Source: Spirochaetales bacterium (GTDB taxonomy: Bacteria > Spirochaetota > Spirochaetia > DSM-2461). Taken from it: a stretch of DNA of 64,000 nt. Position 1 is the first letter of the stretch, and every line of letters starts with the position of its first letter. Below, piece after piece: positions 43,959 through 58,804 of this stretch. Location: contig JAFGXR010000033.1 of the NCBI GenBank assembly GCA_016936555.1, positions 1 to 64,000 on the forward strand, read 5' to 3'. The notes below the pieces were generated by a model. The model worked only from the letters and a program-made list of their open reading frames with translations. It had not been told where the DNA came from and searched no databases. Made by a program: the position numbers and the translations under genes.

Positions 43959-43987
43959 TTGACGGGTCACTTAACCTGATTCATGAT
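43959..43987 (+). promoter_or_regulatory. probable promoter of the 5'-nucleotidase gene
   Basis: TTGACG (43959-43964), 17 bp, CATGAT (43982-43987). The predicted start, about 43994, lies upstream of AAGGAGG (44001-44007). The ATG at 43983 falls inside the -10, which supports TTG 44013 as the true start codon. Confidence 0.45.
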
Positions 43988-44012
43988 TATTAGGAATCTA
44001 AAGGAGGATATC

Positions 44013-45617
44013 TTGAATATCAAAAAGTTTTTAACGGTTTTTATCATTGCAGCTGTAATGATGGCTGTCGGTTGTGCTTCCGGTCCGATCGCGCCGAAAG
44101 ATGAAGAACAGCACCTGGTTATTCTCAACACGAATGACCATCACGGGCATCCCGTGGCGTTTTTTGACTATCCCGCTTCCGACCAGGGGGGGATCCCGGC
44201 CAGAGCAACTTTTATTGAAAAAGTAAAAATGGAGAATCCCAATGTTCTGGTTGTTGACGCCGGAGATATCAATACCGGGCGTCCCGAATCTAATTTCTTC
44301 AAAGCAGAAGCGGATATTATCGGCTACAATATGGCCGGTTATGATCTTCTCACTATGGGAAATCATGAGTTCGATAACGATTTTGCTACAATGCAGGAAC
44401 AGATCGCTCTATCCGAGTTCCCCTGGCTCTGTGCTAACGTAGTAAATGAAGACGGAAGTTATATTGAAAATGTTCAGCCATATGTCATTAAAGAATATCC
44501 CACTTTCAAAGTGGCTGTTCTAGGTCTTATGAGCAAATACACTGCTGAAACAGGAAATCCCGAGTTCATTAAGGGATATGCTTTCCGCGATGAAGTTGAA
44601 GTTGCCAAAGAACTTGTTCCCAAGCTTCAGAAGAAGGCTGACATCGTCATAGCTGTCGTTCATATGGGTATCTATGACGAAACAAAAGGCTCCATGCTTC
44701 TGGCAAAGGAAGTTCCCGGAATCGCAATGATTGTCGATGGGCATACTCATACGAAAACTGAAGAACCGGTTTGGGTTACCAATGCAGAAACAGGAAATGA
44801 TGTCGCTATTGTTTCCTCCAAGCACTGGGGACTGTACATGGGTAAAACTGATCTTACTTTCATGAATGGAGAAGTCACCGGAATCGATTTTGAGCTTGCC
44901 CCCATCAATGTCAGAACGAGAGTGAAAGATGCGGACGGCAACAGTACTTATCCGACTGTCGGTGAAGAGTTAGAGAAGAATCAGGAAATACTGGCTGTTC
45001 TTCAGACTTATGTCGATAAGGTTGATGCTGTTCTCAGCGAAGTCATTGGAAACGCTACTGATGTCTTCCCCAATGACAATACCAGAAAAATGGAAACTGC
45101 TATTGGTGATATCGTAACGGATTCCCAGAAATGGTTTATCGAGAACCAGGGTATGGAATGTGATTTCGCTTTCCAGAACGGTGGTGGAATCCGTGCTACA
45201 CTCGGTTCCGGTGAAATCCAGAAACAGACTGTTTATGAAGTTCTTCCCTTTGATAACTCTATCGCACTTATTGAATTGAAAGGTTCTGATGTAACAGCTC
45301 TATTCGAAAAAGCGGCAACTAACATCGGTGCCGGAGCTATGGCGCAGGTATCGAAAGAAGTAAAAGTCGTCTTTGATTCTGCATCAAAGACACTCGTGGA
45401 ACTTGCTATTGACGGCATGCCCGTAGATCCTGATAAAGTATACAAAATCGCCCTTAACTCCTACCTCGCGGCTGGTGGTGACGGCTATGATGTATTCAAA
45501 AATCAGCTTTCCTACTACGACACCTCACTGATGCAGAGAGATGCTTTTATCGATTATGTCATTCATCTGGGCGGAACAATTTCCCCCATGACTGACGGAC
45601 GTATTACAATCAAATAA
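44013..45617 (+). CDS. 5'-nucleotidase / metallophosphoesterase lipoprotein
   Basis: The 534-residue protein begins with a lipoprotein signal (lipobox AVGC, Cys21). The metallophosphatase domain (residues 35-290) has NTNDHHGH, DAGDINTG, MGNHEFD, VHMGIYDE and VDGHTHT; the C-terminal 5'-nucleotidase domain (320-530) has FQNGGGIRA and the substrate stack near GGDGYDVF. Family enzymes remove phosphate from nucleotides or UDP-sugars outside the cytoplasm so that nucleosides can be taken up. It follows its own promoter and ends in a terminator, next to the purine cluster. Confidence 0.93.
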   Translation: MNIKKFLTVFIIAAVMMAVGCASGPIAPKDEEQHLVILNTNDHHGHPVAFFDYPASDQGGIPARATFIEKVKMENPNVLVVDAGDINTGRPESNFFKAEADIIGYNMAGYDLLTMGNHEFDNDFATMQEQIALSEFPWLCANVVNEDGSYIENVQPYVIKEYPTFKVAVLGLMSKYTAETGNPEFIKGYAFRDEVEVAKELVPKLQKKADIVIAVVHMGIYDETKGSMLLAKEVPGIAMIVDGHTHTKTEEPVWVTNAETGNDVAIVSSKHWGLYMGKTDLTFMNGEVTGIDFELAPINVRTRVKDADGNSTYPTVGEELEKNQEILAVLQTYVDKVDAVLSEVIGNATDVFPNDNTRKMETAIGDIVTDSQKWFIENQGMECDFAFQNGGGIRATLGSGEIQKQTVYEVLPFDNSIALIELKGSDVTALFEKAATNIGAGAMAQVSKEVKVVFDSASKTLVELAIDGMPVDPDKVYKIALNSYLAAGGDGYDVFKNQLSYYDTSLMQRDAFIDYVIHLGGTISPMTDGRITIK

Positions 45618-45697: not shown

Positions 45698-45726
45698 TTG
45701 AATATATATTTTTTCTGTGGTAATTT
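45698..45726 (+). promoter_or_regulatory. possible promoter of the pur operon
   Basis: TTGAAT (45698-45703), 17 bp, TAATTT (45721-45726), predicted start about 45733, eleven bases before the riboswitch P1 stem. The -10 is a weak match, but its position is right for transcribing the whole aptamer. Confidence 0.35.
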
Positions 45727-45743
45727 GACGGCGAAAATCAATA

Positions 45744-45807
45744 GCTCGTATAATCTTCCGATCGGGGAAGAGTTTCTACAAACCACCGTAAATGGTTTAC
45801 TATGGGC
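45744..45807 (+). ncRNA. purine riboswitch aptamer, guanine type
   Basis: P1 is GCTCGTA (45744-45750) with TATGGGC (45801-45807), including two G-U pairs. J1/2 reads TAAT after GTA, giving the conserved TATAAT. P2 is CTTCC/GGAAG (45755-45759 and 45766-45770). J2/3 is AGTTTCTAC, nearly invariant in the class. P3 is AAACCA/TGGTTT closing the loop CCGTAAA. J3/1 is ACTATG, with C at the ligand-pairing position (74 in xpt numbering), so guanine or hypoxanthine is the expected ligand, not adenine. It lies about 130 bases upstream of purL. Confidence 0.9.
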
Positions 45808-45858
45808 GGAAGCATTTTTTCTCGGTAAATCCTTTCCGTAAGATCCTTACGAGAGAGT

Positions 45859-45909
45859 CCGGTATTAATCTTTCCGCAAATCAGTGGGAATATGACCGGG
45901 CTTTTTTTT
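45859..45909 (+). terminator. riboswitch expression-platform terminator (putative)
   Basis: CCGGT (45859-45863) pairs with ACCGG (45895-45899), with an inner TTCC/GGGA helix, followed by eight T (45902-45909) and only then the purL Shine-Dalgarno GGGAGG. A separate hairpin CGTAAG-ATC-CTTACG lies between aptamer and terminator and could be part of the switching region. Folding alternatives were judged by eye only. Confidence 0.5.
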
Positions 45910-45934
45910 ATTATAACCGGGAGGAAAATCCTGC

Positions 45935-48900
45935 ATGGATCGTAGACGGATTTACGTCAGAAAGAAAGAGGGCTTCAATCTGGAAGCCGGAGAGCTTAAG
46001 AAGGATCTGAGGGATTCCCTCCGTATCAACGCCCTGGAAAATATCACCATTTACAATATCTACGAGATATCCGGGCTCAGTGAAGGCCAGTTCAGCGAAG
46101 GACTGGCCGGTATTTTTTATGAGGAGCCGGTTGATGAGATCTTTTATGAGGCTCCTTCTCTCGATGCCGCTTATTTTGCAGTGGAATATCTTCCCGGACA
46201 GTTTGATAACCGCGCCGATTCGGCGGAACAGTGTCTTCATCTGAAGTTCGGAGAGTGGAAAGGTTCTGTCAAAACAGGAAAGCTTCTGGTTTTCGAGGGG
46301 ATTGATCCATCTGAACTGGATAAGATTAAATCCTATTATATCAATGATCTGGAAATGAGAGAAAAAGATCTCTCAGTTCTTCAGGGACTTGAAGAAGGGG
46401 AGAGCCCGGACCGGATCCCATCCTTCGAAGGATTTATAACGGCAGATGATGATGAAATCCCGGCCCTCCATGCCTCGCTCGGTCTGGCTATGACATCTGC
46501 CGACCTTAAGCACTGCCGCGACTATTTCCGCGACGAGGAGAAACGCAATCCCACGGAAACGGAATTGCGTGTACTCGACAGCTACTGGTCGGACCATTGC
46601 CGCCACACTACCTTTGAGACGGAAATAAAGAATATTGATTATGGATCCGGAGACATAAAAACTCTGCTGGAGAGTAGCTTTCAGGATTATCTGAACTGCC
46701 GGAAAAAAACCGGACGGGAGGATAAACCTGTCTCTCTTATGGATCTGGCAACCATTTCCATGCGGGAAATGTACGCTTCCGGTGAACTTCCCGATCTGGA
46801 TAAATCGGAAGAGATAAATGCCTGCAGCATTAAAGTCCCTGTCAGAACGGAGAGCGGGGTAGAGGACTGGCTGGTTATGTTCAAGAACGAGACCCATAAC
46901 CATCCAACGGAAATTGAGCCTTTCGGGGGGGCTTCGACCTGTATCGGCGGCGCCATAAGGGATCCTCTTTCTGGTCGCTCTTATGTCTACCAGGCCATGA
47001 GGGTTACGGGAAGCGCCGACCCGACCGTTCATATCGATGAAACGATCGAGGGCAAGCTGCCGCAGAAAAAAATTACGACCGGTGCCGCCCACGGTTACAG
47101 TTCATACGGAAACCAGATCGGCCTCGCCACGTCCTATGTCCGCGAAATATATGATGAGGGCTACAAGGCCAAAAGAATGGAAGTCGGGGCTGTCGTCGGG
47201 GCTGCTCCGGCGGAAAACGTCGTCCGGGAAATTCCCGTTGCAGGCGATGTCGTCATTCTTCTGGGAGGAAAAACGGGACGGGACGGAATAGGCGGGGCGA
47301 CGGGATCATCGAAAGAACACACAACAGAATCCCTCGATGCCTGTTCGGCGGAAGTCCAGAAGGGAAATGCTCCCGAAGAAAGGAAGATTCAGCGTCTCTT
47401 CCGCAAGAAAAAAGTGACATCCCTTATCAGACGATGTAATGACTTCGGTGCAGGAGGGGTTTCGGTCGCCATCGGCGAATTGAGCCGCGGACTGAAAATC
47501 GATCTCGATAAAGTTCCTGTAAAATACTCCGGTCTGAACGGTACAGAGCTGGCGATTTCCGAATCCCAGGAGAGGATGGCCGTTGTCGTTCATGAAAAAG
47601 ATGCGGAACTTTTTATTGCTTATGCCGATGAGGAAAACCTTCAGGCTGTCAAAGTTGCTGTCATTACAGATAACGAGAGGCTGGTCATGACCTGGAAAGG
47701 GCAGACCATAGTTGATCTCAGCAGAAATTTCCTGGATACAAACGGCGTGAGAAATTCGGTCGATCTGGCTGTCGCGCCTCTCTCCGACAACAACCCCTTT
47801 ACAGTTGAAGTGGATGGCTCGACTCTGGGGGAGAAGTTTACAAATAATCTGACTTCTTTAAACAACAGTTCCCAGAACGGACTTTCCGGTATGTTCGATT
47901 CGACGATCGGAAGCGGAACGGTACTTCTTCCCTATGGCGGAAAGTATCAGAATACGGAAAACGAATGTTCTATTCACAAAATCCCCGTGGGAATCGAAGG
48001 CAGTTCGACCTGCAGCGCCCTCTCTCAGGGATATAATCCGGCCATTTCCCGGTGGAGCCCTTTCCATGGAGCGGCGTGGGCCATCGTGGAATCTCTGACC
48101 AGGCTGGCGGCCTCCGGTGCTGATCCGTTGAAGGCGCGCCTGTCCCTTCAGGAGTACTTCAGGAAACCCGGTACGGACAAGGAAGCATGGGGCGAGCCCT
48201 TTGCCGCTCTTCTCGGCGCTTACCATGTTCAGAATAAACTGAGAATTCCCGCCATCGGCGGTAAAGACAGTATGTCGGGGACTTTTCATGAACTCACCGT
48301 CCCCCCGACATTGATCTCCTTCGCTCTGGCTACGATGGAATCGCAGATGGTTATTTCCTCGGATTTTAAACGGAGCGGAAGTTCAGTCTATCTTCTGGAG
48401 CTTCCGGCGGAAAAAAACGGAATGCCCGATTTGGACAGGTTAAAGGTTAACTTTGAGCTATTCAGGAAACTGGCAGGGAAGGGAATCGTATTCTCTGCCG
48501 CCACTGTGAGACAGGGCGGTATGGCGGAAACTGTAGCTCGAATGTGTTTTGGTAATCAAACCGGATTCTGTTTTACTGATTCTTCAATTGAAAAGTCCAT
48601 GTTCAATCTCTCCTACGGTTCCATTCTGTTTGAAACATCACAGATTCTCGATTTTGAGGAAACCAGGCTGGTCGGGAAAACCGTCGGCGGATCAAGAATT
48701 TCCTTTACCGACGGAACATCTGTAGAAATTGATGACCTTGTTGAGGCGTGGCGGAAGCCTCTCGATAAAGTATTTCCCCATTTTCACAAAGAGGATTCAG
48801 AGGAAAACACTCTGGAAAAAAGAGATTCTGTTCTGACGGTGAATCGGAGGAGTTCCGCATCAAAAAGTGCCGAACCGAAAGTCCTTATCCCTGTATTTCC

Positions 48901-49666
48901 CGGGACCAACTGCGAGTTTGACAGTTCCAACGCTTTTTTCAAGGCCGGGGCACAGGTTGTGACTCCGGTGTTCAGAAATGCCGACTCCAAAGCGATCGGA
49001 GAGTCTCTGGCGGAACTTAAAAATCAGATAGATACAGCCCAGATTCTCTTTCTCGCCGGCGGATTCTCTGCCGCCGATGAGCCCGACGGATCGGGAAAAT
49101 TCATAACGTCCATCCTCCAGAATCCGATTATCAGCGATGCAGTTATGTCCCTTCTTGACAGGGACGGATTAATACTGGGTATCTGTAATGGTTTTCAGGC
49201 CCTTATAAAAAGCGGGCTTCTGCCATTCGGTCAGATCGGAGCTCAGACGGCGGATTCGGCAACATTGTTCAGAAATAAAATCAACCGCCATGTTTCCAAA
49301 GTCGTTACGACGAGAACGGCTTCGGTCAATTCGCCCTGGCTCGCCGGAATCAACAGGGGTGATCTTCACAGCATTCCCGTCTCCCATGGCGAGGGCAGAT
49401 TTATGGCAAAACCGGAAATTATCGAAAAACTCTTCGATAGGGGGCAGGTGGCTTTTCAGTATTCCGATTTTGAAGGCAATCCCACAATGGATCCCCGGTT
49501 TAATCCCAACGGCTCGGTTGCGGCTATCGAGGGGATTATATCTCCCGACGGAAGAATCCTGGGTAAAATGGGGCATTCGGAAAGAACCGGCAGAGATGTG
49601 TTGAAGAATATAAGCGGCAACAGAGATCAGAGAATCTTTGAAAGCGGCGTGAAATATTTCAGTTAG
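45935..49666 (+). CDS. purL: phosphoribosylformylglycinamidine synthase, single-chain
   Basis: PurL converts FGAR to FGAM with glutamine and ATP. The 1243-residue form carries an N-terminal PurS-like region (1-150), the linker and two AIRS-type synthetase halves (SYWSDHCRHTTF near residue 209, NETHNHPTEIEPFGGA near 320) and a C-terminal class I glutaminase from about residue 980, with nucleophile Cys1084 in GICNGFQ and His1151 in SHGEGRF. The N-terminus (RRIYVRKKEGFN) resembles the clostridial single-chain type more than the proteobacterial one. It is the first gene behind the purine riboswitch. Confidence 0.95.
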   Translation: MDRRRIYVRKKEGFNLEAGELKKDLRDSLRINALENITIYNIYEISGLSEGQFSEGLAGIFYEEPVDEIFYEAPSLDAAYFAVEYLPGQFDNRADSAEQCLHLKFGEWKGSVKTGKLLVFEGIDPSELDKIKSYYINDLEMREKDLSVLQGLEEGESPDRIPSFEGFITADDDEIPALHASLGLAMTSADLKHCRDYFRDEEKRNPTETELRVLDSYWSDHCRHTTFETEIKNIDYGSGDIKTLLESSFQDYLNCRKKTGREDKPVSLMDLATISMREMYASGELPDLDKSEEINACSIKVPVRTESGVEDWLVMFKNETHNHPTEIEPFGGASTCIGGAIRDPLSGRSYVYQAMRVTGSADPTVHIDETIEGKLPQKKITTGAAHGYSSYGNQIGLATSYVREIYDEGYKAKRMEVGAVVGAAPAENVVREIPVAGDVVILLGGKTGRDGIGGATGSSKEHTTESLDACSAEVQKGNAPEERKIQRLFRKKKVTSLIRRCNDFGAGGVSVAIGELSRGLKIDLDKVPVKYSGLNGTELAISESQERMAVVVHEKDAELFIAYADEENLQAVKVAVITDNERLVMTWKGQTIVDLSRNFLDTNGVRNSVDLAVAPLSDNNPFTVEVDGSTLGEKFTNNLTSLNNSSQNGLSGMFDSTIGSGTVLLPYGGKYQNTENECSIHKIPVGIEGSSTCSALSQGYNPAISRWSPFHGAAWAIVESLTRLAASGADPLKARLSLQEYFRKPGTDKEAWGEPFAALLGAYHVQNKLRIPAIGGKDSMSGTFHELTVPPTLISFALATMESQMVISSDFKRSGSSVYLLELPAEKNGMPDLDRLKVNFELFRKLAGKGIVFSAATVRQGGMAETVARMCFGNQTGFCFTDSSIEKSMFNLSYGSILFETSQILDFEETRLVGKTVGGSRISFTDGTSVEIDDLVEAWRKPLDKVFPHFHKEDSEENTLEKRDSVLTVNRRSSASKSAEPKVLIPVFPGTNCEFDSSNAFFKAGAQVVTPVFRNADSKAIGESLAELKNQIDTAQILFLAGGFSAADEPDGSGKFITSILQNPIISDAVMSLLDRDGLILGICNGFQALIKSGLLPFGQIGAQTADSATLFRNKINRHVSKVVTTRTASVNSPWLAGINRGDLHSIPVSHGEGRFMAKPEIIEKLFDRGQVAFQYSDFEGNPTMDPRFNPNGSVAAIEGIISPDGRILGKMGHSERTGRDVLKNISGNRDQRIFESGVKYFS

Positions 49667-49681
49667 AAAAAAGGGGTAATA

Positions 49682-50161
49682 ATGAAAGCGGCTATTATTT
49701 TCGGCAGCAAGTCCGATACGGACAAAATGAGTGGAGCGGCAAAATGCTTCAAAGAATTCGGTGTGGAATACGAGGCATATGTTCTATCCGCCCACAGAGT
49801 TCCCGAAAGGCTGGTGGAAGTTCTCAGAGATCTTGAAGAGAGGGGATGCGAAGCCATTGTGGCCGGAGCGGGACTGGCAGCTCACCTGCCGGGGGTTATC
49901 GCATCCAAGACGACACTCCCCGTTATCGGAGTTCCCCTCGAAGCGGCCCTTGACGGCATGGATGCTCTGCTTTCGATCGTTCAGATGCCCAAATCCATCC
50001 CTGTTGCCACTGTGGGAATCAATAACTCCTATAACGGAGCTATGGTCGCCGTTCAGATCCTGGCGGTTAAATATCCTGAGATAAAAGAGAAACTGATAAA
50101 TTTCAGAAAAGAGATGAAGGAAAATTTTCTTAAAGACAACGGGGAGGTTGTAGAACTGTGA
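49682..50161 (+). CDS. purE: N5-CAIR mutase / AIR carboxylase PurE (class I-like)
   Basis: PurE makes CAIR. The 159 residues contain [20 protein letters not shown] (active-site His) and [17 protein letters not shown], with [16 protein letters not shown]. The SAHR and AAHLPG motifs match class I, not the treponemal class II enzyme with SAHK and a changed glycine-rich loop. Class I enzymes in bacteria usually need PurK, but no purK lies in this cluster. It follows purL by 15 bp and overlaps purC by 4 bp. Confidence 0.94.
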
Positions 50162-50862
50162 GCGCTGTAATGTACGAAGGAAAAGCCAAGCAGGTTTTTC
50201 AGACAGAGAACGAAAATGAGGTTCTGATCCGCTACAAGGATGACGCGACGGCTTTTAACGGTGAAAAAAAAGGACAGATAGTCGGAAAAGGCGAAATCAA
50301 CAACAGCATTACATCCATCCTGTTCACTCTGCTTGAAGAAAAAGGGATCAAAACACATTTTCTCAAGAAAATAAATGAGAGAGATCAGCTCTGCCGTTCC
50401 GTGGAAATCGTCATGGTCGAAGTCATCGTCCGGAATATCATTGCCGGCAGTATGGCGAAGAGAGTGGGAATCGAAGAGGGAACAGTCCCTCCCAATACAA
50501 TATTTGAAATCTGCTACAAAAACGATGATTTCGGCGATCCTCTGATCAACGATCACCACGCCGTGGCCATGGGTCTGGCAACTTACGAAGAGTTAAACAA
50601 AATATATGAAATGACAGCTGAGATCAATGATATCATGAAAGCCTTTTTTGATGATCTGGGCATCACTCTCGTCGATTTCAAACTCGAGTTCGGCAGAACG
50701 AAAGATGGTGAGATTATCCTGGCTGATGAAATCAGCCCCGATACATGCCGTCTCTGGGACAAAAAGACCGGAGAAAAACTCGATAAGGATCGCTTCAGAA
50801 GAGATCTCGGAAACATCGAAGATGCCTATAAAGAGATTCTCAGCAGACTGGGGGGAAAATGA
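50158..50862 (+). CDS. purC: SAICAR synthetase
   Basis: PurC joins aspartate to CAIR using ATP. The 234 residues show [41 protein letters not shown], and the C-terminal [20 protein letters not shown] with DTCRLWD. Start is GTG in the overlap GTGA with purE. The stop overlaps purF by 4 bp (ATGA). Confidence 0.96.
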
Positions 50863-52241
50863 ACCACAGAGAGCTTCCCGACAAGATGGAAGAGGAGTGC
50901 GGCGTATTCGGAATCTATTCTCCCGACAATGACCAGATAGGGAGTCTCACCTATCTGGGATTGCTCGCGCTTCAGCACAGAGGCCAGGAGAGCGCCGGAA
51001 TCTCGGTCGTGCAGGGTGATACAATTACCGGTCACAAGGATATGGGGCTTGCTGCCTGGGTTTTCAAAGATTACGATCCGGCTTCTCTGACCGGTTCCGT
51101 ATCGGTCGGCCATGTCCGCTATTCCACTTCCGGAGACAGCTGCGTGGAAAATGCCCAGCCTCTGGAAGCTCATTGTAAACTCGGTTCGCTGGTTATCGCC
51201 CATAACGGGAATCTGATCAATGCCGATATCATCCGCTCTCTTCTCGAGGACGGGGGAGTTCTCTTTCAGACCAGCAGCGATTCGGAAGTTCTTATGAGCA
51301 TGATTGCCCGCGGAGCGTCAAAGGGTTTTGAAAAAGCCGTAGTCGATGCCATCAGCGCCGTGAAAGGTTCTTATGCATTGATTATCTCGCTTGACAATAA
51401 ACTCATCGGAGTCCGTGACCCTTACGGGATCAGACCCCTTTGTATCGGCAGGTCGGGGGACAACAGCTGGTTTCTCGCATCGGAATCCTGCGCTCTTGAT
51501 GCCGTCGATGCGGAATTCGTCCGCGATGTGGAGCCCGGTGAAATAGTCGTTATCGATGAGACAGGCTTGAATTCCATCGCCCATGATAAGAACAACAATC
51601 TGACGACCTGCGTCTTCGAGTATATCTACTTCGCCCGGCCCGATTCTGTCATCGACGGGATCGATGTTTATGATTTGCGGTCCAAATGCGGAGAAGCTCT
51701 TTACAAGGAATATCCCGTTGATGCCGATGTTGTCGTCGGCGTGCCCGATTCCGGTATTCCCGCCGCTCTCGGTTATTCCCACGCATCGGGGATCCCCTAT
51801 GTTCAGGGCTTTATTAAAAACCGCTATGTGGGGCGGACTTTTATCTCTCCGACCCAGGAGATCCGGGAAAAAGCCGTCTCGCTGAAACTCAATGCGGTGC
51901 GGAGTCTCGTGAAGGATAAAAAAGTTCTTCTTATCGATGATTCCATCGTCAGGGGGACGACCAGCCGCCGCATGGTGAGAAAACTGCGCCAGGCCGGAGC
52001 GAAAGAAGTGCATATCGGCATCGTCTCTCCTCCCGTTTCGGATCCCTGCTATTTCGGTATCGATACGCCGAACCGGGAAGATCTCATAGCCAATAAAATG
52101 ACCAATGCTGAAATCTGCCAGTCCATCGGTGCGGACAGCCTTCAATATCTGAGCCTCGACGGTTTACTGACGGCGCTCGGGCGTAAAGACGGTTTCTGCC
52201 TGGGATGCCTGAACGGGATTTATCCCATTTCTACAAGATAA
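50859..52241 (+). CDS. purF: amidophosphoribosyltransferase
   Basis: PurF makes phosphoribosylamine from PRPP and glutamine, the committed purine step. A 13-residue propeptide precedes the nucleophile Cys14 ([10 protein letters not shown]), as in the processed Bacillus-type enzymes. The phosphoribosyltransferase domain has [13 protein letters not shown]. Cysteines near residues 240 and in [11 protein letters not shown] at the C-terminus are placed like the 4Fe-4S ligands of Bacillus PurF. It overlaps purC by 4 bp. Confidence 0.96.
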
Positions 52242-52251
52242 GAGAGGATGT

Positions 52252-53244
52252 ATGATTACCTATAAAGAGAGCGGAGTCGATAAGGAAGAGGGCTACAGAG
52301 CCGTAGAGCTGATAAAGGAATCGGTCAGGAAAACCCAGGGGCCGGAAGTCCTTAACAGGCTGGGCGGTTTCGGTTCCCTCTATGAACTGGGCAAATATGA
52401 TAATCCCGTTCTGGTTTCCGGTACAGACGGCGTCGGAACCAAACTGGCCGTCGCTCTTGAAAAAAAAGTGTACCATACGGTGGGTATCGACTGTTTTGCC
52501 ATGTGCGCCAACGATATCCTCTGTCACGGCGCCCGGCCGCTTTTCTTTCTCGACTACATAGCCTGTGGCAAGCTGGAAGCCGAAGTCTCATCACAGATCG
52601 TCAAGGGCATTACCGATGCCTGCCTGGAATCGGGAACGGCTCTTGTCGGCGGAGAAACCGCCGAAATGCCCGGATTCTACAGGGACGGCGATTACGATGT
52701 GGCCGGTTTCTGTGTCGGGGTTGCTGAAAAAAGCAAACTGGCAGGACCCGAAAAGGCTGTGGAAGGCGATGCGGTGATCGGCATCGCTTCTTCCGGAGTG
52801 CACAGCAACGGCTTCAGCCTGATCAGGAAACTGGTCAAAGATCTCGACGAGGAGTTTAACGGCGAGCCGGTCTGGAAAGAACTTATCAAACCGACGAGGC
52901 TTTATATCAAGCCGGTTCTCTCGCTTCTCGAGAAATACGAAATTCATTCCATGGCCCATATAACAGGCGGCGGACTGAGGGAAAATGCGCCCCGTGCCGT
53001 AGCGGAAGATCTCGGGATTGAAATTGACCGCTCGAAAATTGCCATACCGGAAATATTCCGTTTTCTCGAAAAGAAGGGCGTTCCCCATGAAGATATGTGG
53101 GATACGTTCAACATGGGAATCGGTTTTCTGCTGGTTGTACCGGAAAAAGAGGTCGTTGGAATACTTTCCGATCTTACTGAACAGTCTATGAAAGCGTCTG
53201 TCGTCGGTAAAGTTGTCAAAGGAGAGAGGTTTTGCTTCGTGTAG
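52252..53244 (+). CDS. purM: phosphoribosylaminoimidazole synthetase (AIR synthase)
   Basis: PurM closes the imidazole ring of FGAM with ATP. The 330 residues have SGTDGVGTKLAVA (residues 60-72), CFAMCANDILCHGARPLFFLDY, GGETAEMPGFY, ASSGVHSNGFSL and HITGGGLRENAPR. Length is standard. It starts 10 bp after purF and its end overlaps purN by 13 bp. Confidence 0.96.
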   Translation: MITYKESGVDKEEGYRAVELIKESVRKTQGPEVLNRLGGFGSLYELGKYDNPVLVSGTDGVGTKLAVALEKKVYHTVGIDCFAMCANDILCHGARPLFFLDYIACGKLEAEVSSQIVKGITDACLESGTALVGGETAEMPGFYRDGDYDVAGFCVGVAEKSKLAGPEKAVEGDAVIGIASSGVHSNGFSLIRKLVKDLDEEFNGEPVWKELIKPTRLYIKPVLSLLEKYEIHSMAHITGGGLRENAPRAVAEDLGIEIDRSKIAIPEIFRFLEKKGVPHEDMWDTFNMGIGFLLVVPEKEVVGILSDLTEQSMKASVVGKVVKGERFCFV

Positions 53245-53816
53245 CCGTACTCATATCCGGCGGCGGATCCAATCTTCAAAGTCTGATCGACTATTCCCGT
53301 TCAAACAGCGATGCGGGGTATGAGATAACTTCTGTCATTGCCGACCGTCCCGCAGGAGGGCTGGAAAAAGCGGAAAAGGCCGGGATTCCGGCGCATCTTC
53401 TCGACCGGAAAAAAGGAATGGAATCTCTGGCCGATGATATTCATAGACTCATCTACGGACAAGTCGATTATATCGTTCTGGCGGGATTTCTTTCGATTCT
53501 TGACAGTCTCTTTATTGAAAAATGGAACAAGCGCATTATTAACATTCACCCGGCGCTTCTCCCCGATTTCGGAGGCAGGGGAATGTACGGAATGAATGTT
53601 CACAGAGCCGTTCTGGCATCGGGCGCCAAAGAGTCGGGGTGTACGGTTCATTATGTCGACAACGGGATTGATACGGGAGAAATCATCAATCAGATGAGTC
53701 TTGAAATCGATCAGAACTGGAGTGCCGAACAATTGCAGAAAGAAGTGTTGAAACTGGAGCATATATTGCTTCCGCAAACTCTTCAGCTTCTCTGCGACAG
53801 AGGGAGTGAAACATGA
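53232..53816 (+). CDS. purN: phosphoribosylglycinamide formyltransferase
   Basis: PurN formylates GAR with 10-formyl-THF. The 194 residues show AVLISGGGSNLQSLID at the N-terminus, LAGFLSIL, the catalytic set NIHPALLPDFGGRGMYG and HYVDNGIDTGEII. Start is TTG at 53232 after GGAGAGAGG, inside the end of purM. It overlaps purD by 4 bp. It consumes folate one-carbon units and so links to folC and metF in the window. Confidence 0.95.
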   Translation: MLRVAVLISGGGSNLQSLIDYSRSNSDAGYEITSVIADRPAGGLEKAEKAGIPAHLLDRKKGMESLADDIHRLIYGQVDYIVLAGFLSILDSLFIEKWNKRIINIHPALLPDFGGRGMYGMNVHRAVLASGAKESGCTVHYVDNGIDTGEIINQMSLEIDQNWSAEQLQKEVLKLEHILLPQTLQLLCDRGSET

Positions 53817-55060
53817 AAATTCTGATAACAGGCGGCGGGGGACGGGAACATGCCCTGGCTGTAAAACTGGCGGAGAATCCTGCTGTAAAAACAATTTTCT
53901 GTGCCCCCGGTAACGGCGCGACGGCACTGATGGAAAAATGCCGGAACATTAAAGCGGGCTCTCCCGCTGAACTTGCTGATTTCGCTCTTGCTGAAGGAGT
54001 CGATTTAACTGTTCCCGGGGCCGAGGATCTTCTTGTCGCGGGAATCGCCGATATCTTCAAAGAGAAGAAAATGAAAGTTTTCGGACCTCATAAAGCGGCG
54101 GCCATGATGGAAGGCAGCAAGAGTTTCGCCAAGGACTTTATGAAAAAACACGGCATAAGAACGGCCGCTTATGAAACCTTCACCGATTCGGAAAAAGCTT
54201 TCGAGTATCTGAAAACAGCTCCTCTTCCCACAGTTGTAAAGGCGGACGGGCTTGCCGCCGGAAAAGGTGTCATTATCTGTCAGACCCGGGAAGAAGCTGT
54301 GAAAGCTGTTCAGGATATTATGGTGGACAACTGTTTCGGTGAAGCGGGCAGATCTGTCGTAATTGAAGAATTTCTGACCGGTGTTGAAGCTTCCATTCTC
54401 TCTGTTTTTGACGGAAGGGGGATTACCCCTTTTATTTCCGCCAAAGACCATAAAAAGATAGGTGAAGGCGAAAAGGGGCTCAATACGGGCGGGATGGGTG
54501 TTATCGCTCCCAATCCCTTTGTAACCGATGAAGTCTTCCGGGATTTCAGAGAAAACATTATGGTCCCGACTGCTGCAGGATTGATTTCTGAAAATCTGAT
54601 CTTTCCGGGCATAATCTTCTTCGGGCTGATGATTAACGAAAAAGGGGTCTATCTCCTGGAGTACAATCTCCGCATGGGAGATCCCGAAACTCAGGCTGTT
54701 CTGCCTCTTTTAAAAACGGATCTGCTGGAAATCATTGAAAAAGCCATGGGTCCGGGATTATCTGAAGAGGATCTGGAATGGAGCGGAAACTGTTCATGCG
54801 CTGTCGTTCTGGCCTCCGGCGGCTATCCCCTTGGATATGCAAAAGGTTATGAAATATCCGGCATCGATAAGGAGGATATTGTTTATATCAGCGGAGCTCA
54901 GCTCGATGGCGGCAAGCTTCTGACATCGGGAGGACGGGTTCTGACCGTTGTCGGTTTGGCTCCCGACGCTCAGAGCGCCAAAGGTGAAGCCTACGCGATA
55001 ATTGATAAAATCCACTTTACCGATCAATATTGTCGAAAAGATATTGGAACTATTCTGTAG
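53813..55060 (+). CDS. purD: phosphoribosylamine-glycine ligase
   Basis: PurD joins glycine to phosphoribosylamine using ATP. The 415 residues contain GGGGREHALAVKL, PGAEDLLVAGI, VKADGLAAGKGVIIC, TGGMGVIAPNP and YLLEYNLRMGDPETQAVLPLL. It is the last gene of the riboswitch-controlled operon, followed by a terminator. purH, purB and purK are not in the window. Confidence 0.96.
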   Translation: MKILITGGGGREHALAVKLAENPAVKTIFCAPGNGATALMEKCRNIKAGSPAELADFALAEGVDLTVPGAEDLLVAGIADIFKEKKMKVFGPHKAAAMMEGSKSFAKDFMKKHGIRTAAYETFTDSEKAFEYLKTAPLPTVVKADGLAAGKGVIICQTREEAVKAVQDIMVDNCFGEAGRSVVIEEFLTGVEASILSVFDGRGITPFISAKDHKKIGEGEKGLNTGGMGVIAPNPFVTDEVFRDFRENIMVPTAAGLISENLIFPGIIFFGLMINEKGVYLLEYNLRMGDPETQAVLPLLKTDLLEIIEKAMGPGLSEEDLEWSGNCSCAVVLASGGYPLGYAKGYEISGIDKEDIVYISGAQLDGGKLLTSGGRVLTVVGLAPDAQSAKGEAYAIIDKIHFTDQYCRKDIGTIL

Positions 55061-55154: not shown

Positions 55155-57902
55155 ATGGATAGAAGCGCGAAAATCAGAGAATTGATGCAGGAGAAGATTC
55201 TCTTTCTCGACGGAGCCACCGGGACGATGCTTCAGTCCAAAAAGCTGAAGGAAGAGGATTTCCGGGGAGAGCGCTTTGCCTCCCATAAGACAAATCTTTT
55301 CGGCAACAATGATATACTAAATCTGACGAGACCCGATGTTATCACAGAGCTGCACCTTTCCTTTTTTCATGCCGGTGCGGATATTGTAGAAACGAATACT
55401 TTCAACGGGACAGCTCTGTCCCAGGCTGATTACGGAACTCAGGATGCTGTCTATGACATTAACTTCCATGGGGCGCAGATAGCCGTCCGGGCGCGCGATA
55501 CCTTTGAAAAAGAAAATCCCGGTTCTATAAAATTTGTCGCCGGATCTATCGGGCCCACATCCAAAACCCTTTCTCTTTCGCCTAAAGTGGAAGATCCGGC
55601 TTACCGCGCTGTCACCTATGATGAAGTGGAACAGGCTTTCATCACCCAGATAACCGGACTTGTTGACGGAGGAAGCGATCTGCTGCTGATCGAGACGGTA
55701 TTCGATACCCTCGTTTGTAAAGCTGCTATCAGCGCGGCGGAAAAAGTATTTGCCGATAAAGGGAAAAAACTCCCAATAATGATATCGGGAACCATCAGCG
55801 ACAGCAGCGGTAGAATTCTTTCCGGTCAGACTGCCGAAGCCTTCTGGTACTCCGTAGCCCATGCCAAACCGCTGACGATCGGATTGAACTGCGCACTCGG
55901 CGCGAAGGATATGGAGGATCACCTCAAGGTTCTTTCGCGAATTGCCGACTGCGGTGTCAGCACCCACCCCAATGCCGGGCTTCCCAATGAGCTGGGCGAG
56001 TACGATGACACACCTGAAGTCATGGCTTCCTATATAGAGCGTTTTGCCAAAGGCGGTTTGATCAATATTGTCGGCGGATGCTGCGGGTCGACTCCCGATC
56101 ATATAAGAGCTATCGTCAAAGCCGCTGAGGGTTTTGAACCGAGAAAAATCCAAAGAAAGAAGAAACAGTCCGTTTTCTGCGGCCTTGAGCCCTGCATCAT
56201 CGATGAGAATTCACTTTTCGTCAATGTGGGCGAACGGACCAATGTTACGGGATCCGCCGTATTCAAAAGACTTATTACCGGGGGAGATTACGAATCAGCC
56301 CTCGATGTCGCGCGAAAGCAAGTGGAAAACGGAGCCCAGATCATCGATATCAATCTCGATGAAGCTATGCTCGACTCTGTCAGTGAAATGAGAACTTTCC
56401 TCAATCTTCTGGCATCGGAACCGGACATCTCCAGAGTTCCCGTCATGATCGACTCCAGTAACTGGGAGGTCCTCCATCAGGGGCTCAAGTGCCTTCAGGG
56501 GAAGAGCATTGTCAACTCTATCAGTCTTAAAGAGGGAGAAGACGTATTTCTTGAACGGGCTCGCATTATACGAAGCTTCGGAGCGGCGACTGTGGTTATG
56601 GCATTCGATGAGAAAGGCCAGGCCGATTCCCTCGGGAGAAAAGTGGAAATCTGTAAAAGAGCCTATAAGCTCCTTGTGGAAAAGGCGGATTTCCCCCCGG
56701 AGGATATTATCTTCGATCCCAATATTTTTGCCATTGCGACAGGGATGAAAGAACACGACAACTACGCTGTCGATTTTATAGAAGCTGTCCGGCAGATAAA
56801 AAGAGAATGCCCCGGATCTCTTACAAGCGGCGGTCTGAGTAATGTCTCGTTCTCATTCCGGGGGAACAATCCCTTGCGTGAAGCCATTCACTCGGTGTTT
56901 CTTTTTCATGCCATAGAAGCGGGACTCGATATGGCCATCGTCAATGCGGGACAGCTGATCGTTTATGATGAAATCCCTGCCGATCTTCTTAAAATCGTTG
57001 AAGATGTCGTGCTCAACCGGGTTCCCGATGGGGCGGAAACACTTCTCGAGGCTGCCGGAGATTTCAAGGAGTCGGCGGGAAAAGAGGAGAATACACTGCA
57101 GTGGCGGTCGGAACCGGTCGAAGACAGACTGACCCACGCCCTCGTAAAAGGCATTACAGAATTCATTGAAGAGGATGTTGAGGAATGCCGGCTCGCTTCC
57201 GCCAACCCCATTGATGTCATAGAAGGGCCGCTGATGCGGGGCATGTCCCAGGTAGGCGATCTGTTCGGAAGCGGAAAGATGTTTCTTCCCCAGGTGGTGA
57301 AGAGCGCCCGGGTTATGAAGAAAGCTGTTTCCATCCTTCTCCCCTATATCGAACAGGAGAAGGAAAGCTCGCAGGGGTCGAGCCGCGGAAAAATCATTAT
57401 GGCCACGGTTAAGGGAGATGTTCACGATATCGGTAAAAATATCGTCGGCGTTGTTCTGCAGTGCAACAACTTCGAAGTCGTCGATCTCGGCGTCATGGTT
57501 CCCCAGCAGGATATTATCAAGGCGGCGATCGAGCATAAAGCCGATATCATCGGCGTCAGCGGTTTGATCACGCCCAGTCTCGAGGAGATGCGGGTGCTGG
57601 CCGAGGATCTCGATGAAGCGGGCATGGACATTCCGCTTATGGTAGGCGGAGCCGCGACATCGCCCATACATACGGCGGTGAAACTCACGACGTCCAGATC
57701 CGGAGGAGTTGTCATCCATTCGGGCGATGCGTCCGACGCCGTTTATACCGCGTCCATGCTCCGAAGTGACAAAGTCGAACAGTTCCTTCGGGAAAAGGCG
57801 GAATCGCAGGAACGGGAAAGAGAAAAACACAGAAACAAAAGCGGAGATCAAACCGCAAAAATGCTTTCGTTCAAAGAGGCGCGCAACAAAAGGATTCGCT
57901 GA
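55155..57902 (+). CDS. metH: cobalamin-dependent methionine synthase, without activation domain
   Basis: MetH moves the methyl group of 5-methyl-THF to homocysteine through cobalamin. The 915 residues hold the homocysteine domain (1-320; zinc ligands Cys246, Cys309, Cys310), the pterin domain (345-610; [11 protein letters not shown]), the Cap helices (640-730) and the B12 domain (735-890; DVHDIGKN with the cobalt-ligand His757). The roughly 300-residue reactivation domain of E. coli MetH is missing and is encoded by the next gene, which overlaps as TGATG. TAAGGAG precedes the ATG. Confidence 0.96.
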
Positions 57903-58804
57903 TGAAATTACCTGTAAAAACCGGATTAACCATATTGAAGGATCTTCCCCTGGAAGATGTGACCGAAATGATCGACTGGAAGATGTACCTGGTGACCTGG
58001 GACTTCAGAACGAATGAAGCCCGTGAGTCGAAAGAGGCGGAAGAACTGCTTCATGACAGCCGGGAACTTCTCGATCGGGTCGTCAGGGAAAACCTGCTTA
58101 CCATTGACGGTGCTGTCAGAATAGAAAAAGCCCGTACCGTTGATTATGATGATATTCAGATTTACGACGAAAAAAGCGGGGAGACAATTATGGAACTCCC
58201 CATGCTGCGCCGTCAGATCCCGAGAATGGGGCATTGTCCTTCACTTGCTGATTATATTGTTGCCGAGGGGGACGATCCTGCTGAACCGGGCATTGATGAT
58301 TATATGGGCTTTTTCGCCGTTACATCATCAAAAAAACTGGATGAAGCTCTTAAGTTGTTTCCTGAAGATGATCTCTACAGTCCGCTTCTCCTCAAATCCC
58401 TGGCCGATCGGCTGGCCGAAGCGGGTGCGGAATACATTCATTCCAGAGTCAGGCGGGAAATCTGGGGATATGAAAAGGGTCGGGAGCTCTCGGCAGATGA
58501 ATTGCTCAAAGAAGCCTATCAGGGCATTCGTCCGGCACCGGGATATCCCTGCTGCCCGGACCATACGGGTAAGCGGGATATTTTCGATCTTCTCGAAGCA
58601 GAGAAGAATCTGGGCATCGCTTTGACAGAGTCATATATGATGCAGCCGGCCGCTTCGGTTTGCGGATATATCTTCGCATCGGACAAGGCGAAATACTTCC
58701 CCGTAGGGAAAATAGGGGAGGATCAGCTCGAATCCTACGCCTCCCGGAAAGGAATGGATACCTCTGAAATCCGGCGCTGGCTTTCAGTCAATCTCAATGA
58801 TTGA
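57902..58804 (+). CDS. methionine synthase activation-domain protein (separate reactivation subunit)
   Basis: This 300-residue protein corresponds to the C-terminal AdoMet-binding reactivation domain of MetH, which remethylates oxidised cob(II)alamin. Signature motifs are GFFAVTSSKKLDE, AGAEYIHSRVRREIWGY and RPAPGYPCCPDHTGK, the last being the AdoMet-binding stretch (RxxxGYPxCPDH). The preceding residues 1-110 include a linker-like acidic part. The start overlaps metH by one base, so equimolar translation is likely. A comparable split is known in Thermotoga. Confidence 0.92.
   Translation: MKLPVKTGLTILKDLPLEDVTEMIDWKMYLVTWDFRTNEARESKEAEELLHDSRELLDRVVRENLLTIDGAVRIEKARTVDYDDIQIYDEKSGETIMELPMLRRQIPRMGHCPSLADYIVAEGDDPAEPGIDDYMGFFAVTSSKKLDEALKLFPEDDLYSPLLLKSLADRLAEAGAEYIHSRVRREIWGYEKGRELSADELLKEAYQGIRPAPGYPCCPDHTGKRDIFDLLEAEKNLGIALTESYMMQPAASVCGYIFASDKAKYFPVGKIGEDQLESYASRKGMDTSEIRRWLSVNLND

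Follow-up and report, generated by a model that had tools for sequence, protein, structure and literature searches.

A guanine riboswitch of family RF00167 ahead of a seven-gene purine operon in a spirochaete

Known guanine riboswitches and the locus

Riboswitches of the guanine class bind guanine or hypoxanthine with nanomolar to micromolar affinity. A guanine-type member of family RF00167 precedes xpt-pbuX in Bacillus subtilis, and those features of its expression platform that are used for comparison here are established knowledge. The window (the whole 64,000-nucleotide stretch of DNA analysed) holds an element that shares with xpt-pbuX the three-helix junction with its segments J1/2, J2/3, and J3/1, the C at position 74, and the bases of the L2–L3 contact, as well as a P1 3' strand shared with a predicted antiterminator and a terminator ahead of a purine gene. 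It differs in its shorter P2 (6 bp, against 7) and L2 (6 nt, against 7), in where the antiterminator partner sits (the terminator's inner arm), in its spirochaete host, and in its first gene, purL. By analogy with Bacillus xpt, this layout predicts guanine-induced termination.

The three-stem scaffold is also common to the 2'-dG-I/II, xanthine-II, guanine-II, and adenine variants, whose defining changes in the junction or at position 74 are absent from the window. In Clostridium sp. UBA3947 (L104), the genes purL-E-C-F-M-N-D have the same arrangement, and purL is immediately preceded by a guanine riboswitch whose aptamer is the same as well. The position of the antiterminator partner corresponds as well: the P1-tail GGGUAAAUCC complements, by eye, GGAUUUACUC in the terminator loop. 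The P2-L2 of this leader, however, spans 21 nt, and the leader is otherwise unrelated to the window in sequence.

Aptamer, promoter, and operon

A scan of the whole window against Rfam returned a single riboswitch match, to RF00167, at 45726–45822 of the forward strand with 59.3 bits and an E-value of 1e-7 (gathering score 37 bits; E-value computed over the whole window against 4227 families). RF00167 was the best-scoring model of its clan at this site, and the 4.7-Mb genome contains one copy. The first-pass annotation had proposed a guanine-type purine riboswitch here and had named a covariance-model search as the check; the significant match, with C74 present, bears it out. The features of the locus are collected in Table 1, with aptamer positions and contacts named in the xpt numbering.

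Table 1. Coordinates of the riboswitch, its expression platform, and the purine operon
Feature	Position	Strand	Remarks
Probable sigma-70-type promoter TTGAAT-N17-TAATTT	45698–45726	+	TTGAA(T/C)-N17-TAATTT kept in 4/4 genus genomes
Guanine aptamer core	45744–45807	+	RF00167 match, covariation in 18 Spirochaetota aptamers, pocket parse
P1	45744–45750/45801–45807	+	GCUCGUA/UAUGGGC, 7/7 standard pairs, two G-U
P2	45754–45759/45766–45771	+	UCUUCC/GGAAGA, 6 pairs
L2 GAUCGG	45760–45765	+	6 nt, one fewer than the consensus 7; position 35 or 36 absent
P3	45780–45785/45793–45798	+	AAACCA/UGGUUU, 6 standard pairs
L3 CCGUAAA (CCGTAAA in DNA)	45786–45792	+	Partner of L2
C74, purine-pairing position	45800	+	C = guanine type; RF00167 alignment, pocket parse
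Switching strand GCGGAA	45806–45811	+	Its GC is the P1 end; all six pair with 45872–45877 when P1 is open
Intrinsic terminator	45856–45909	+	Outer stem 45856–45863/45895–45902, inner stem, U-run 45902–45909; present in four genomes
UUCCGC	45872–45877	+	Terminator inner arm, or GCGGAA partner in the antiterminator
purL ribosome-binding site GGGAGGA	45919–45925	+	Outside the terminator
purL, FGAM synthase, long single-chain type	45935–49666	+	TIGR01857, 1746.8 bits, cut-off 1057; ATG at 45935
purE	49682–50161	+	TIGR01162
purC	50158–50862	+	TIGR00081
purF	50859–52241	+	TIGR01134
purM	52252–53244	+	TIGR00878
purN	53232–53816	+	TIGR00639
purD	53813–55060	+	TIGR00877

The pocket is the canonical guanine pocket, with U22, U47, and U51 at 45751, 45773, and 45777 and C74 at 45800. 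J1/2 is the UAA of TATAAT, J2/3 is GUUUCUAC, and J3/1 is the AC within ACTATG that brings C to position 74; AGTTTCTAC is present at 45771–45779. These motifs, together with P1, CCGTAAA, and the two G-U pairs in P1, were recovered as annotated at first pass. For P2, which that annotation had regarded as short, the 6-base loop proved right, and the stem has six pairs rather than the five it had counted. All L2–L3 contact bases are kept (A33, U34, G37, and G38; C60, C61, A65, and A66). In an L2 that is one base shorter, G37 and G38 could pair with C60 and C61 of L3. L2 comprises 6 nt in the window and in two other genomes of its genus (G401, G402), and 7 nt in the fourth (G403).

The aptamer helices are supported by covariation: when 18 distinct aptamers from Spirochaetota were aligned, changes on both sides were observed for 15 of the 17 pairs tested. 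Paired cells amounted to 92.8% compared to 70% after shuffling, with none of 500 shuffles as high, and a shift of the partner column by one lowered pairing to 39–46%. Membership of the class is given by the score above 37 bits, the three-helix junction, C74 with U22/U47/U51, and the purine-gene context; the changed J2/3 or J3/1, or U74, of the 2'-dG, xanthine-II, and adenine variant classes were not found.

A second promoter candidate, TTGACG-N18-TATAAT at 45725–45754, scored better than the conserved one in Table 1, but shares sequence with the aptamer. It was rejected because relatives do not keep its first hexamer. Downstream, all seven pur genes exceeded the curated NCBIfam cut-offs, in agreement with the seven-gene operon annotated before. 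Directly upstream of the riboswitch and on the same strand, a UshA-like 5'-nucleotidase gene (43983–45617) has a terminator-like stretch of its own, GGGGCTGCCTTCCGGGGCAGTCCTTTTTTTT, behind it; the gene is possibly a purine-salvage neighbour. On the 3' side of purD, the methionine synthase gene metH is split into a 915-aa protein (55155–57902) and a 300-aa reactivation domain (57902–58804), which are joined by the stop/start overlap TGATG. The break lies at the identical place in 4/4 genus genomes, and among the family's other genera in which a long match occurs, most have metH in one piece.

Terminator, antiterminator, and proposed switch

Across the genus, the four leaders can be aligned over promoter, aptamer, and purL start. 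Between the aptamer and the ribosome site they have diverged except for GCGGAA, which directly follows P1 and is invariant in 4/4 genomes. Its complement, UUCCG(U/C) or UCCGC, occurs at the same place of the terminator in all four, and so does a strong hairpin with 5–8 uninterrupted U; the downstream folds range from -30.2 to -35.1 kcal/mol. The terminator is conserved in place, while its stems fall into three lineages unrelated in sequence: AGUCCGGU/ACCGGGCU in the window (G000), to which the stem of G401 is close, AAGCCCGAAUAAC/GUUAUUCGGGCUU in G403, and AUCCCGAUUUUAU/AUAGAAUCGGGUU in G402. In the window, the hairpin (45856–45902) and eight T (45902–45909) ahead of the purL ribosome site confirm the possible terminator of the first-pass annotation.

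When the P1 3' strand together with GCGGAA was matched to downstream RNA, the strongest duplex fell within the inner 5' arm of the terminator in 4/4 genomes, namely GCGGAA:UUCCGC for G000 and G401, GGGCGGA:UCCGCUU for G403, and AUAAGCGGAA:UUCCGUUUAU for G402. The pairing is mutually exclusive with the terminator, and a terminator/antiterminator switch sharing the P1 3' strand is thus suggested by sequence complementarity kept in the four genomes. In G402, GGGC of P1 is changed to AAGC (UAUAAGC) and the 5' strand from GCUCGUA to GCUUGUA; the terminator arm UUCCGUUUAUA changed together with P1, which results in a 10-bp antiterminator. When the downstream region was shuffled, a duplex of this strength arose in only 2 of 1000 cases. 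For the other three genomes, 275, 146, and 215 of 1000 shuffles were as strong, and the strength is unexceptional.

Growing transcripts of the four leaders were folded. P1 was partly to mostly formed until the inner 5' arm of the terminator was made, and had a probability of 0–0.14 just before the 3' arm was made. Meanwhile GCGGAA was paired with the inner arm at 0.7–1.0, with the exception of the last A of the tail in G403; for the half-made transcript of the window, the GCGGAA-UUCCGC pairing probability was 0.87–0.96. After completion of the 3' arm, P1 regained 0.23–0.85. Over the critical stretch, 2–6 kcal/mol are needed to keep the aptamer closed, which is expected to be less than the energy that guanine binding would provide. 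Low P1 probabilities were also common when the inner terminator segment was shuffled (76/300 for G000, 153/300 for G401). A proof of the antiterminator based on energy was rejected, as the shuffles make strength alone weak evidence in three genomes. Because both strength and low P1 are common in shuffles, the antiterminator step rests on its recurrence and on the co-change in G402. An alternative pairing of the P1 5' strand, CUCGUA/UACGAG (45745–45750 with about 45849–45854), appeared in the predicted fold of G000; visual inspection allows a pairing of this type for G401 and G402, and not for G403.

We are highly confident that the window element belongs to the RF00167 class as a guanine (hypoxanthine/guanine) riboswitch and shuts down the purine operon by terminating transcription. 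Synthesis by RNA polymerase would begin near 45733, with the aptamer made first. With guanine bound, P1 would be closed, and its 3' strand and the tail GCGGAA would not be free; the terminator could then fold, and transcription would stop before purL. Without guanine, GCGGAA and part of the P1 3' strand would pair with UUCCGC once the inner 5' arm is made, the terminator would come too late, and purL-E-C-F-M-N-D would be transcribed. C74 and the canonical pocket point to guanine as the ligand. The topology of the leader and the genes behind it suggest in which direction control acts, and the kinetics of switching are likewise inferred. Guanine riboswitches commonly lower the expression of purine-synthesis genes (PMC9295807). 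The affinity could be lower than that of the textbook aptamer, P2 being one pair and L2 one base shorter.

Guanine riboswitches and their platforms in Spirochaetota

RF00167 was found in 47 of 393 Spirochaetota genomes and 19 of 168 genera, and its occurrence in the Brachyspira-containing group was confirmed by named Brachyspira records. The rarity outside Firmicutes and a few Proteobacteria that the first-pass annotation implied does not hold at these numbers, whereas its assignment to a spirochaete-like host is supported. The family of the window has the element in 15 of 26 genomes, including 4/4 of the genus, all of which keep the aptamer ahead of purL. The next gene is purL in every readable leader of the family (leaders of the sister genus g171 were recognised by the translated start). 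Elsewhere in the phylum, the aptamer precedes purE, NCS2-type permeases, and guanine-deaminase-like amidohydrolases, names that derive from N-termini only. No paper describing guanine riboswitches in Spirochaetota was found among open-licence papers. The class is established in the phylum, though little written about: guanine riboswitches are an established form of purine control in several spirochaete lineages and not a speciality of Firmicutes. Taken alone, the window element belongs to an ordinary, well-known class.

U22, U47, U51, and C74 were present in 48/48 distinct Spirochaetota aptamers parsed. Their P2-L2 comprises 18 nt (3 aptamers), 19 nt (24), 20 nt (2), 21 nt (10), or 22 nt (4), besides five large insertions, compared to 20–22 nt in 24 clostridial aptamers. 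From these sequences, the shorter P2-L2 appears to be a habit of Spirochaetota and not a sign of another ligand. This bears on the suspicion, raised at first pass, that the short P2 marks a variant class sensing 2'-deoxyguanosine, xanthine, or adenine. Such variants of the scaffold are known for all three ligands, and the 6-bp P2 and 6-nt L2 do fall short of the 7 and 7 of the Rfam consensus. The described variant classes, however, are distinguished by J2/3 and J3/1 or by position 74 (PMC9295807). In the window these are canonical, as in 48/48 Spirochaetota aptamers parsed; the loop bases A33, U34, G37, and G38 are retained, the pur operon is the usual gene context, and 27 of the 48 aptamers combine a P2-L2 of 18–19 nt with an unchanged pocket. 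A variant ligand class was rejected on these grounds and is highly improbable. We give little credence to a related view, in which the spirochaete riboswitches with short P2-L2 are a functional subtype with altered affinity or purine selectivity despite the canonical pocket, because a weakened L2–L3 contact would alter the fold. That the match is a decayed or chance sequence without function has next to no probability: its 59 bits are below the 75–93 of the best clostridial copies, but the E-value is 1e-7, covariation was reached by 0/500 shuffles, and four genomes preserve the pocket and the switching parts amid diverged surroundings.

In the sister genera g2 and g171 of the same family, as in the window, purL directly follows an aptamer whose pocket is canonical, but a terminator was not visible. 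Five g171 leaders (L132, L133, L135, L136, and L137) have the aptamer ahead of purL, without a visible terminator, and their ribosome site GGGGGAA lies inside a hairpin UUCUCCCG...CGGGGGAA, by which it is hidden. One g171 genome carries CCCA/UGGG in this hairpin, a compensatory change. The P1 tail UAUGGGCGAAU complements the 5' arm of the hairpin (duplexes of -9.2 to -14.2 kcal/mol), so g171 would pit the P1 tail against its off-hairpin's 5' arm in the same way, with translation instead of transcription as the output. The ribosome-site hairpin of G410 forms at equilibrium with or without P1 forced; given this indifference, the g171 platform, too, would depend on folding order. For the window itself, control mainly at translation start by a hidden ribosome site is favoured by the example of g171, where the P1 tail can also bind the hairpin's 5' arm, UUCUCCC. 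It is very unlikely, as the genus of the window has its ribosome site outside the hairpin, with 5–8 uninterrupted U after the hairpin in 4/4 genomes. With transcription termination as the preferred reading for the window, one aptamer and one gene occur with two expression platforms in the two genera, which offers a natural comparison for platform exchange.

A tree of PurL places the window not inside Clostridia but among other spirochaetes, including Brachyspira and riboswitch-bearing lineages, together with two Bacteroidales; at least seven label changes are needed. A single recent transfer of operon and riboswitch from Clostridium would match UBA3947, but was rejected in view of this grouping. 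Joint transfer has been suggested in general for riboswitch-bearing units (PMC2258182), and it is plausible that operon and riboswitch were transferred together at some time, in either direction. Within the family, G381 (L167) is without the riboswitch, and its PurL groups with Lachnospiraceae PurL rather than with that of the riboswitch-bearing members, probably as a gene replacement.

Two further groups were observed. In a Treponemataceae-like family (f3, L223–L235; genomes G365, G268, G464, G460, G200, G456, G544, G386, G519, G523, and G338), guanine aptamers with canonical pocket stand ahead of purE and carry an extra L2 hairpin at positions 34–36, with a P2-L2 of 40–64 nt in 11 of 12 parsed genomes. 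CGACGG occurs just before P1 and, in most leaders, the complementary GCCGCCG shortly before the ribosome site, possibly as an outer or competing helix. The inserted loop of seven contains CUCCUCA, complementary to a ribosome site. The element appears to be a structurally variant guanine riboswitch. In family f15, genus g178 (L236–L241), guanine riboswitches are followed by very strong terminators AGCCGUCAUC...GAUGACGGCUUUUUU; for the single leader that was computed, the loop of the terminator is complementary to the P1 tail. Among leaders displayed as far as the start codon, the gene that follows resembles purE.
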